Source: Thermoplasmata archaeon (lineage in GTDB: Archaea; Thermoplasmatota; Thermoplasmata; UBA10834). From it: a stretch of 32,747 bases of DNA. The stretch is from contig JAEHCN010000007.1 in the NCBI GenBank assembly GCA_020696395.1, positions 1 through 32,747 of the forward strand, given 5' to 3'. The notes beneath the pieces were generated by a model. That model made no database searches and was not told the DNA's origin. It saw only the letters and a list, made by a program, of their open reading frames with translations. The position numbers and the translations under genes were made by a program. Each line of letters starts with the position of its first letter. Position 1 is the stretch's first letter. Shown here piece after piece: positions 27,213 through 32,014 of this stretch.

Positions 27213-28541
27213 ATGGGAAGTGTGGAGCGGGAGGTGCTGAAGAGGGTCAGGCCGTCTGCTGCCGAGGACCGGAAGGTGCTTAGAGCGGTCGAGGCGCTCG
27301 TGCCTCTGGTCGTGGATGCCGCGGCAGCGCTCGACGCGCGCATCGAGCCCATGCTCGTCGGCTCCGTAGCGAAAGGCACCCACCTCAGGGACCCGGACAT
27401 CGACCTGTTCATGCTGTTCCCGGAGAGCACCCCTGTCCAACAGATGAGGGATCTCGGGTTGGAGATCGGTAAGAGGGTGCTCGGCGGCGAGGAGCATTAC
27501 GCCCAGCACCCGTACGTCCGCGGTACCTTCAACGGTTTCCAGGTGGACCTAGTCCCCTGCTTCCACATCCGCGACCCGCGCAAGAAGCTGAGCGCGGTGG
27601 ACAGGACGCCGTTCCACACAGAGTTCGTGAAGGCGCACATGGAGCGCGACCAACACGACCAAGTGAGGTTGCTTAAGCGCTTCATGAAGGGAATAGGCTG
27701 CTATGGCGCGGAAGCGAAGGTCCAGGGGTTCTCCGGCTACCTGTGCGAGCTACTCATAATACGCTTCGGCACGTTCGAGCGTGTGCTCAGGGAGGCGTCC
27801 GGTTGGACGAAGGGTGTGACGCTCGAGCTGCCGGACCATCCGGGCAAGGAGTTCCCCGAGTCGTTGACGTTCGTCGACCCAGTGGACTGCGGGAGGAACG
27901 TGGCGTCAGCCGTCTCCACGGACGCCCTCAGAAGGTTCATATTTGCATCTAGGGCTTACCTGGCCCGCCCAGATGTGAAGTTCTTCTATCCGGAGGAGCG
28001 GAAGAAGTGGCAGAGGGCGAGGATCGCGAAGGCCGCAGGGGACCGGCTGGCGAACATGACCGTGGTGTCGTTCGAGCGGCTCGACCTCATCGACGACGTG
28101 TTCTACCCCCAGCTGAGAAAATCCCTGGCTTCCGTGACCTCCCTCCTGAAGCGGAACGACTTCGAGGTCGTCGGGACCACGGTGTTCGTCGAAGATGAAG
28201 TGGCCCTCCTGGTCGAGCTGTCGTCCATACAGCTGCCGCGTGAACGGGCCCACAGAGGCCCTCCCGTGGGTTCGCCGAACGAGCGTGAGTTCCGCGCGAA
28301 GTGGGATCACGCTGGACTCTCCGAGCCGTACAAGGAAGGGGGGAGATGGTACGTGGTCATCGAGCGTAAGCATGTCCGGGCCGACGTCCTCCTGAAGGAG
28401 AGGATATCCTCCCTGACGCTCGGCAAGGACGTCAAGAATATCAGTTCATTCAGGGTCGAGTCCGGCGACCAGCTACTGGCCAGAAGGTATGCCGGCGTCC
28501 TGACACACTACCTCGACGAGAGAAACCCCTGGGAGCGGTAG
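27213..28541 (+). CDS. cca: Archaeal CCA-adding enzyme (class I tRNA nucleotidyltransferase)
   Basis: 442 aa; VGSVAKGTHLRDPDIDLFMLFP catalytic motif, VDLVPCFHI, VRLLKRFMKGIGCYGAEAKVQGFSGYLCELL. Confidence 0.96.
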   Translation: MGSVEREVLKRVRPSAAEDRKVLRAVEALVPLVVDAAAALDARIEPMLVGSVAKGTHLRDPDIDLFMLFPESTPVQQMRDLGLEIGKRVLGGEEHYAQHPYVRGTFNGFQVDLVPCFHIRDPRKKLSAVDRTPFHTEFVKAHMERDQHDQVRLLKRFMKGIGCYGAEAKVQGFSGYLCELLIIRFGTFERVLREASGWTKGVTLELPDHPGKEFPESLTFVDPVDCGRNVASAVSTDALRRFIFASRAYLARPDVKFFYPEERKKWQRARIAKAAGDRLANMTVVSFERLDLIDDVFYPQLRKSLASVTSLLKRNDFEVVGTTVFVEDEVALLVELSSIQLPRERAHRGPPVGSPNEREFRAKWDHAGLSEPYKEGGRWYVVIERKHVRADVLLKERISSLTLGKDVKNISSFRVESGDQLLARRYAGVLTHYLDERNPWER

Positions 28542-28557: not shown

Positions 28558-29337
28558 CTACGACACGAAAGGTATGCCCGTCACCGGTACGAACGTGATA
28601 TCGTTGCCGTGGTCGTCCACGGCGTGGATGAAGAATTTCAGCTCCGGCAAGGCAGCGAGGTCCTCCCCGCCTACCACATGATCGAACCTGTTGACGACGT
28701 CAGCATCCTCCACCATGTCCGAGTAGATGCCCTCCACGTTTCCGATGCATATCTCCGCGATCGTGAGGACCCCGTTGTCCGTCACGCGGGCGGTGATGTT
28801 CACCGTGAAGCTCTCGTTCGCCGCGATAAGGCTGTTCAGCTCCCCGCCGTGGCGTGGGACCCATCCGTAACTTCCCTGGCTGGGGATGTACTTGTAGTCG
28901 ATCGCTGTGATGTTGCCGGTGCTCTCGTTGGTCACCCAGACCGCGACGTTCTCGACCTTGGGGTTGGCGTGGTCCGATATGGGGAAGTTGAATGTCAGTA
29001 TCCACACGGCGAGGAATGTCAGGAAAAACCAAGCCACATTCCCGGCCCAGTTCTTCTTCTGGAAGTCCTCCGTTCTGATCTTCAGGAACGGATAGAAATA
29101 CTTGAGCGAGTAGAGGCCAGCGAAGACGAGGAGGAAGGACAGGCCTATGAGGTTGTTCGAGATGTGGGCGAGTGTCGTCGCGATGACCCCGAAGAGAGCC
29201 CCGTAGCCGACGGTGATCAGCACGGTCTTGGTGTCTCTCAGCTCCTTCTCAATGAACTCCTTCTCGTCGAACTCGGGAGGCCTGAACTCGTACTCCTCCT
29301 CCTTCTTCGCCTTGTCCTTCTTCCGCTTCTTGGCCAT
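28558..29337 (-). CDS. Membrane protein of unknown function
   Basis: From [28 protein letters not shown]...; Lys-rich N-terminus, three TM segments, extracytoplasmic beta-rich domain. ORF-track extension to 29877 overlaps radA and is rejected. Confidence 0.7.
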
Positions 29338-29515: not shown

Positions 29516-30985
29516 ATGTCAACGTCCGAAGAGGAGGTATCTAGGCTCCCTGGTGTAGGCCCCGCGATCCTAGAGAAGCTGAAGGAGGCCGGATACAACG
29601 ACATCATGATGATTGCGGTAGATTCACCTAGGAACCTTGCCGAACTGACCGAGATAGGGGACGCCACCGCTGTGAAGATAATAGCCGCCGCCAAGAAGTT
29701 CGCGGATGTCGGCGGCTTCGAGACGGGCGATACGCTCCTCGAACGGCGGAAGAGCATCGCGAAACTTCCTTCCGGCTCGAAGTCGTTGGACGACCTGATG
29801 GGCGGTGGGTTCGAGTCTCGTGCCATCACCGAGTTCTTCGGCGAGTTCGGCTCGGGGAAGTGCGTCTCGCCGCACACCGAGGTGCTCTACCTGGCTGATG
29901 GCGAGCCACGGGTCGAGGAGATATCTCGGATGTACCAGCGGCTGGGGCGGGGGATGGCGGTGCCATTCGATTCGGGCCATGTCGTCCCTCTCAGCGACGT
30001 CGAGGTCCCTAGCCTCTCCGGTGGTAAGCTGGAGCGCACCTCCGCCGCCGCGATATACCGCGAACGCGTCAGACTCATGTTCGAGGTCTCGACGGTCGGA
30101 GGTAGGAACCTCGAGCTTACGGGGCCGCACAAGCTCCTGGTGATGCGCGGGTCGGATATATCCTGGATGCCGACATGGGATGTCCGTTCCGGAGACCTCA
30201 TCGCCGTGCCGGCCTCATCGACTTCGTATGACGATGCCCGTGGAGGACTGAACGATGATTCCCTCTCATGGGACGAGGTGTCGTCCGTCCTCCCGTTCAC
30301 ACATGACGATTTCGTCTACGACCTGGTCGTGCCAGACACCCATTCGTTCGTCGGGGGCAACCTGCCGACGGTGCTACACAACACGCAGATATGCCATCAG
30401 CTGGCGGTCAACTGCGCGAAGCCAGTGGACGATGGGGGGCTGGACGCGCACACCATAATGATCGACACTGAGCAGACCTTCAGGCCCGAGAGGATAATCC
30501 AGATGGCGGAAGCGGCCGACATGGACCCTGACGATGTTCTGAAGAAGATCCACGTGGCCCGCGCGTACAACAGCCACCACCAGATGCTGCTCCTGGATAA
30601 GGCGTTCGAAGAGGCGAGGGAGACGCCTGCTAGACTGCTGATAGTCGATTCTCTTACGGCCCATTTCCGGGCCGAGTACATCGGAAGAGGGGCCCTTGCC
30701 GAGAGGCAGCAGATGCTGAACAAGCACATGCACGCCCTCCTGCGTTTCGGCGACGTTCACAACGCCGTGATAGCCGTGACCAACCAAGTCTCGGCGAAGC
30801 CAGACGCTTTCTTCGGTGACCCCACCCGACCCATAGGAGGGCACATTGTGGGTCACACGGCCACATTCAGGATATACCTCAGGAAGAGCAAGGGGGGCAA
30901 GCGTATCGCCAGGCTCATCGACTCGCCGAACCTGCCGGAGGCCGAGGCCGTGTTCCAGGTGTCCGAGGCGGGCATCGGCGACTGA
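29516..30985 (+). CDS. radA: DNA repair and recombination protein RadA, intein-containing precursor
   Basis: [35 protein letters not shown]...GEFGSGK[intein][14 protein letters not shown]...[13 protein letters not shown]...[53 protein letters not shown]. Exteins total about 315 aa. Confidence 0.97.
29861..30382 (+). mobile_element. Mini-intein (174 aa) in RadA Walker A motif
   Basis: Starts [21 protein letters not shown] (block A), LTGPHKLLV (block B, TxxH), [25 protein letters not shown] (blocks F/G, terminal His-Asn) followed by Thr; splices GSGK to TQIC. Confidence 0.96.
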
Positions 30986-31024: not shown

Positions 31025-32014
31025 GTGAGACTGCTCCTTGAGCTCTCGATGGAGTGCGAGTCGCTCGCACGGTCGGAGGCCCTTTCCACGGCGGAGACTC
31101 TGGGTGGCGCTGCATCGGTAGTATCCGAGGAGCCCGGGGTGGTCGTCATCGAGACCGGGGCGGACCCTGTAGCCCTCTCCGAGCGCCTGGCATTATGTCA
31201 CTGCGTCTCGGAACATCTCTTCTCATGTGCGCCGGACGGACTGGCGGATACTGTCAGGGACATCGACGTTCCTGGTCCTGTTCGCGTACATTCCACGAGG
31301 GTCGGCACTTCCTTCCCAGAGGTCGACCTGGAGCGCACCAATGCTGCAGTTGGCGAGCTGGTCCGTGATCGCCTTGGCGTCGACATCCATTCTCCTCGGT
31401 CGGAGGTCCGCGTAGTCCTTTCCGAGCAGGCGGACGTGGGTAGATGCATTGGACGGATAGACCGGTCGTCATTCGAGGGGAGGAAGGTTCGTAATCTGCC
31501 GTTCAACCATCCGATTTCAATCCATCCCAAGTTTGCGCGGGCTTTGGTGAACCTCACGATGACGCGACAAGGCGGTCGTCTATTGGACCCGTTCTGCGGG
31601 ACGGGCGCAATAGTCATGGAGGCGTCGCTAGCGGGTTGCGACGCGATAGGGTCGGACATATCGCAGAAGATGATCGAAGGCGCTAGGATGAACCTGCAGT
31701 CGTTGGATATCGACGCCGAGCTGCTGAGGTGCGATATCGGCGAGATATCGAGGGCCGTGGGGAACGTCTCGGGCGTCGCGACCGACCCGCCCTATGGCAG
31801 GTCAACGAGCACCGACGGAGAGCCGCTGCCGGAGTTGTTCTCCCGGGCGCTCGGTGCTTGTGCTGACGTGCTGGACAGCGGCTCTAGGATGGCGATGGCA
31901 GCGCACGATCCCAAGCTCCTCGAAGGGAGCGGCGATTTCGAGATAGTCGAGGTCCATCCTATGTGGGTTCACAGATCTCTGACGCGCCATTTCTGCGTTC
32001 TGAGAAGAGTCTGA
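31025..32014 (+). CDS. tRNA (guanine-N2) methyltransferase, TrmG10/Trm11-like (THUMP + Rossmann MTase)
   Basis: 329 aa; DPFCGTGAIVMEASLAGCDAIGSDISQKMIEGARMN and TDPPYGRS motifs; N-terminal THUMP-like region. Confidence 0.9.
   Translation: MRLLLELSMECESLARSEALSTAETLGGAASVVSEEPGVVVIETGADPVALSERLALCHCVSEHLFSCAPDGLADTVRDIDVPGPVRVHSTRVGTSFPEVDLERTNAAVGELVRDRLGVDIHSPRSEVRVVLSEQADVGRCIGRIDRSSFEGRKVRNLPFNHPISIHPKFARALVNLTMTRQGGRLLDPFCGTGAIVMEASLAGCDAIGSDISQKMIEGARMNLQSLDIDAELLRCDIGEISRAVGNVSGVATDPPYGRSTSTDGEPLPELFSRALGACADVLDSGSRMAMAAHDPKLLEGSGDFEIVEVHPMWVHRSLTRHFCVLRRV

Follow-up and report, generated by a model that had tools for sequence, protein, structure and literature searches.

The closest described relatives of the element reported here are the RadA inteins of Pyrococcus horikoshii (PDB 4e2t, 2lqm and 4e2u) and Thermococcus sibericus, which occupy a common insertion site in the P-loop of RadA (PMC5790916). 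In the P. horikoshii intein, residues 120-133 form a disordered, non-conserved segment that was formerly the seat of a homing endonuclease (PMC5790916). With its native exteins, this intein is blocked from splicing by contacts between the intein and the C-extein, including that of E364 with H312, and heat or single-stranded DNA releases the block; the T. sibericus intein splices at a lower temperature and carries a glutamine (Q361) at the contact position (PMC5790916). Regulated splicing is known from experiment for Pyrococcus and Thermococcus only. More distantly related are the V-ATPase subunit A inteins of Thermoplasmata, which are likewise inserted between the K and T of a GSGKT P-loop.

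The window (the whole stretch of 32,747 nucleotides that was analysed) derives from an uncultivated Thermoplasmatota archaeon, and the genus to which it belongs is probably not hyperthermophilic. Its radA gene carries an in-frame insert, and the relevant features are as follows.

29516-30985, plus strand: radA with in-frame intein, 489 codons plus stop; NCBIfam RadA equivalogs PRK04301 and TIGR02236 at 466 and 461 bits, above cut-off
29516-29860, plus strand: N-extein of RadA, 115 aa, ending in the Walker A sequence ...GEFGSGK; aligned with intein-free RadA of sister genera
29861-30382, plus strand: mini-intein, 174 aa, class 1 Hint domain, codons 116-289; PDB 2lqm/4e2t at E 3.2e-26, Pfam PF14890, AlphaFold (AF2) pLDDT 90.4
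29861-29863, plus strand: Cys1, N-terminal nucleophile; present in 60/60 aligned RadA P-loop inteins
30119-30130, plus strand: block B TxxH (T87-G-P-H90); His in 60/60, Thr in 53/60, Ser in 7/60
30221-30256, plus strand: hypervariable loop, intein residues 121-132, the endonuclease position in relatives; mean pLDDT 57
30320-30343, plus strand: block F, Asp154 to His161; Asp in 60/60, His in 58/60
30377-30382, plus strand: block G, penultimate His173 and terminal Asn174; each in 60/60
30383-30982, plus strand: C-extein of RadA, 200 aa; Pfam Rad51
30383-30385, plus strand: +1 Thr, second nucleophile and Walker A Thr of RadA, read from the sequence
30500-30502, plus strand: Gln at C-extein position +40, the alignment equivalent of the intein contact E364 of P. 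horikoshii (role from PMC5790916) and of T. sibericus Q361

The open reading frame begins with an ATG at 29516, and its stop codon ends at 30985. The insert splits the Walker A motif between Lys115 and Thr290 (GEFGSGK/C...HN/TQICHQ), and joining the flanks restores the motif of intein-free relatives (GEFGSGK-TQLCHQ). The exteins (115 + 200 aa) score far above the cut-offs of the RadA equivalog models. The neighbouring genes at 28561-29337 (minus strand), 27213-28538 (plus strand) and 31025-32011 (plus strand) code for an EMC6-arch-like membrane protein, a CCA-adding tRNA nucleotidyltransferase and a UPF0020/RMKL-like methyltransferase.

A preliminary description had placed a 174-aa mini-intein at 29861-30382 within the Walker A motif of RadA, and these boundaries proved exact. 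The insert is no chance resemblance: it scores 43.0 bits with the Pfam Intein_splicing model (cut-off 35.8), and the NCBIfam intein_Nterm and intein_Cterm models each score above their cut-offs. The class 1 residue set named in that description (Cys1, block B TxxH, terminal His-Asn and +1 Thr) is complete, both in the sequence and in an alignment of 60 RadA P-loop inteins over which the conservation of splicing residues was counted. Because the same insert is present in six further genomes of the genus, three of which are single-contig assemblies, the intein is not an assembly artefact.

The comparison with solved structures leads to the same family. The best PDB sequence match of the insert, obtained with phmmer, is the P. 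horikoshii RadA intein (E 3.2e-26). An AlphaFold model of the intein, computed with 14 natural relatives as input, has a pLDDT of 90.4 with only one weak stretch at approximately residues 121-132. In a Foldseek search with this model, four chains of the P. horikoshii RadA intein rank first (TM 0.84-0.90, the best being 4e2t at 0.90), and inteins stand at the top of 66 PDB matches at E <= 0.001, which identifies the fold as that of a Hint domain. By sequence and by fold, therefore, the closest solved relative is a RadA intein rather than an intein of another gene. The window intein shares with those of P. horikoshii and T. sibericus the host gene, the Lys/Thr insertion point, the Hint fold (TM 0.90), the mini-intein size (168-174 aa), the Cys1, His-Asn and +1 Thr residues, and a disordered loop at the endonuclease site. 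It differs from the P. horikoshii intein in having a Thermoplasmatota host, only about 34% identity, an unrelated loop sequence, a C-terminus that departs from the APNGLVLHN type and is one residue longer, and a glutamine instead of a glutamate at C-extein position +40. In site and fold, it is orthologous to the P. horikoshii and T. sibericus RadA inteins. The TvoVMA intein (PDB 4o1s) has a related Hint domain (E 2.4e-11) but resides in a different host protein and is only about 28% identical. Three loci from relatives in the class encode V-ATPase subunit A mini-inteins at the equivalent P-loop point (GSGK/C...HN/T). Such Thermoplasmata mini-inteins hint that inteins may have moved between P-loop genes with similar DNA.

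The insert is thus in essence a known kind of element, a canonical class 1 mini-intein of the P. horikoshii RadA type and a previously unlisted member of a well-studied family. Splicing by class 1 chemistry is expected because C1, H90, D154, H173 and N174 are invariant among the 60 inteins and position 87 is always Thr or Ser. The precursor would be translated with its P-loop split at Lys115/Thr290. Cys1, aided by T87 and H90 of block B, would attack the Lys-Cys1 bond, the acyl group would pass to the +1 Thr, and Asn174 would cyclise with the aid of His173 and H161. Ligation of the exteins would then yield a RadA of 315 aa in which the GEFGSGKT motif is whole again. Before splicing, RadA would be without a working P-loop, and since the insertion splits this element, we infer that the unspliced precursor cannot bind ATP normally. 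The opposite reading, that the insert is an inert, degenerate sequence that leaves RadA inactive, is extremely improbable: the frame is intact and no splicing residue is missing, dN/dS lies well under 1, and this gene is the sole full RadA match found in the genome, the others being weak, RadB-like or from other RecA-fold proteins.

The preliminary description had stated that Thermococcales RadA inteins occupy the same P-loop site. This site was read directly in three Thermococcaceae mini-inteins, in agreement with published work (PMC5790916). The implication of that description that an intein at this position would be surprising here is not supported, as the site is occupied in many archaeal phyla. 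The equivalent junction, G..(G/S).GK/C...HN/(T/S)(Q/A), was read in about 60 parsed RadA loci. The bearers include the window genus, single members of two sister genera, Methanomassiliicoccales, other Thermoplasmata, Hadesarchaea, DPANN lineages, Desulfurococcales, another Thermoproteota MAG, an Archaeoglobaceae MAG and Thermococcaceae, the last with a P. horikoshii-type sequence among them. Of 12 pattern matches in viral contigs, none is a relative. Six Thermococcus and Methanothermococcus loci considered as RadA inteins were rejected, as they are replication factor C inteins. Six Methanomassiliicoccales loci carry RadA mini-inteins of 174-175 aa whose block B reads SxxH, with Ser in place of Thr. 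Two other radA genes (L077 and L103) apparently have a second intein in the C-extein besides that in the P-loop; the gene L103 is of archaeal type although its genome is assigned to the bacterium Calescibacterium, possibly owing to a binning error.

Across archaea, the RadA P-loop inteins comprise full, half-eroded and mini forms. Full-length versions with a LAGLIDADG endonuclease measure 420-483 aa in Thermococcaceae, mostly 503-518 aa in DPANN, 481-505 aa in Hadesarchaea and 450-517 aa in other Thermoplasmata. These share the site and a homologous splicing domain with the window intein, but they hold an endonuclease or its remains, of which the window copy has none. The extra residues of relatives of 285-517 aa are located at the hypervariable loop 121-132. 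In the window intein, a loop of about 12 residues takes the place of the endonuclease, which upholds the earlier statement that there is no room for a homing endonuclease. A Pfam search of the 174-aa insert returned Intein_splicing only, with no LAGLIDADG or other endonuclease domain, and a homing endonuclease is likewise absent from the inteins of the genus and of the family.

Stages of this erosion can be seen in close relatives. A 509-aa RadA intein in the class has an intact LAGLIDADG_3 domain (E 8e-13), and a 285-aa RadA intein of the same order (L042), with an SxxH block B, holds a half-eroded LAGLIDADG_3 remnant below cut-off (E 0.005). The 285-aa form stands midway between the full inteins and the mini-inteins of the RadA P-loop, and from its remnant we infer that the direction of change was loss. 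Mini-inteins of 168-187 aa are found at several places in the intein tree that lie apart from one another (the window family, Methanomassiliicoccales, Thermoproteota/Desulfurococcales and Thermococcaceae), and the distribution of the endonuclease on this tree requires at least 5-6 changes. Together with the 285-aa intein, this pattern suggests that endonuclease decay at the RadA P-loop has probably occurred repeatedly. The ancestral element would have been a homing intein at the P-loop site whose endonuclease has since gone.

Within the genus, the intein is present in 7/7 genomes. In the sister genera, it was found in 2/10 genomes with a detected radA, one in each genus, and the rest have a clean GEFGSGKTQLC. 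The extein tree unites the family in one clade, whether or not the genomes bear the intein; in this tree, the branch of 7.8 leading to a Micrarchaeota sequence is an artefact of a misaligned row whose C-extein seems to be interrupted again. In the intein tree, which tracks host lineage, the family's inteins group in a single clade with support of 100/100. For close pairs, dS of intein versus extein is 0.39 vs 0.44 and 0.31 vs 0.41, with dN/dS of 0.12-0.18 for inteins and 0.04-0.06 for exteins; against the sister-genus bearers, dS of both is similarly saturated. The GC content of the intein is 62.6 compared to 60.2 for the exteins. The complete presence in the genus, the similar dS values and the low dN/dS point to vertical co-inheritance under purifying selection within the genus.

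These data also bear on the idea that a RadA intein of Thermococcales type was recently acquired by long-range transfer and then lost its endonuclease. Such an origin would account for the shared insertion site, and the best tree does set the inteins of the order beside those of Thermococcales, Archaeoglobaceae and Thermoproteota (97/85), although on long stems (0.91 for the inteins of the family), so that their deep placement is tentative. However, an approximately unbiased (AU) test rejected an exclusive clade of the window family with Thermococcales and Archaeoglobaceae (p 0.008), whereas a clade with other Thermoplasmata was not rejected (p 0.34). In addition, identity to the P. horikoshii intein is only about 34%, base composition resembles that of the host, and synonymous divergence resembles that of the exteins. 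Recent transfer from Thermococcales is consequently disfavoured and appears quite improbable. The preliminary description had offered long-range transfer with endonuclease loss or old inheritance, and of these the endonuclease loss and the old inheritance within the genus are supported, while the Thermococcales transfer is not.

The evidence instead points to old inheritance, accompanied by loss of the endonuclease and by scattered losses of the intein in the sister genera. The ancestor of the genus, and probably that of the family, would already have carried the intein, which would then have been inherited vertically in the genus and precisely lost from most members of the two sister genera. 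Precise loss is the simpler reading of their patchy distribution, with transfer of the intein within the family as a possible alternative. With high confidence, then, we regard the insert as a canonical class 1 mini-intein of the RadA Walker A motif that has lost its endonuclease, was kept vertically in its genus and was probably lost from most members of the sister genera.

This intein might in addition act conditionally, like its P. horikoshii counterpart: in the native exteins, contacts with the C-extein would restrain splicing until single-stranded DNA or stress releases it, and RadA would become active only on demand. Site and fold are those of an intein with published ssDNA- and temperature-stimulated splicing (PMC5790916), and P. 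horikoshii H312, which touches the C-extein, aligns with block F H161, so that this histidine is kept. Retention of an endonuclease-free intein in 7/7 genus members under purifying selection would also fit, but such selection is expected anyway, since failed splicing would inactivate RadA, and the sister genera manage without the intein. At the position of the partner residue E364 stands a Gln, which is shared with T. sibericus, where less heat suffices for splicing. Because Gln at +40 is also standard in intein-free RadA relatives, it gives no sign of co-adaptation. The AlphaFold model of the whole precursor (pLDDT 59, pTM 0.38) is too poor to reveal any interface. By analogy alone, a switch of this kind, and with it the preliminary suggestion that splicing could gate recombination, seems plausible but less likely than not. 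The more specific proposal, that in this probably non-hyperthermophilic genus the immobilised mini-intein, fixed in all members sampled, has come to control RadA after translation and holds it inactive until ssDNA signals damage, is more doubtful still. If true, it would extend conditional RadA splicing well beyond hyperthermophiles.

Other inteins were observed in the same group of organisms. The window genome encodes a second one, of about 260 aa, in a class II ribonucleotide reductase (L162, G000:C66:6000-11000), with the junction LIHK/CLVPET...SHN/SGGGTGFSFS. Its sequence was directly readable in G000 and G001, matches came from G002-G005, and G006 has a partial match at a contig end; it may be a second intein kept throughout the genus. 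In a sister-genus genome (G008), a small intein interrupts a DNA polymerase of family B (LLVT/CLDAAT...THN/CFGYTGYRNARFG).

The RadA locus provides a clear case of a non-homing intein kept through a whole genus, beside sister genera that have both intein-bearing and intein-free members. In the order and class, a single site additionally shows endonucleases at stages between intact and lost. With such close natural controls, the question of whether an intein of this type is a parasite relic or a regulator becomes testable.
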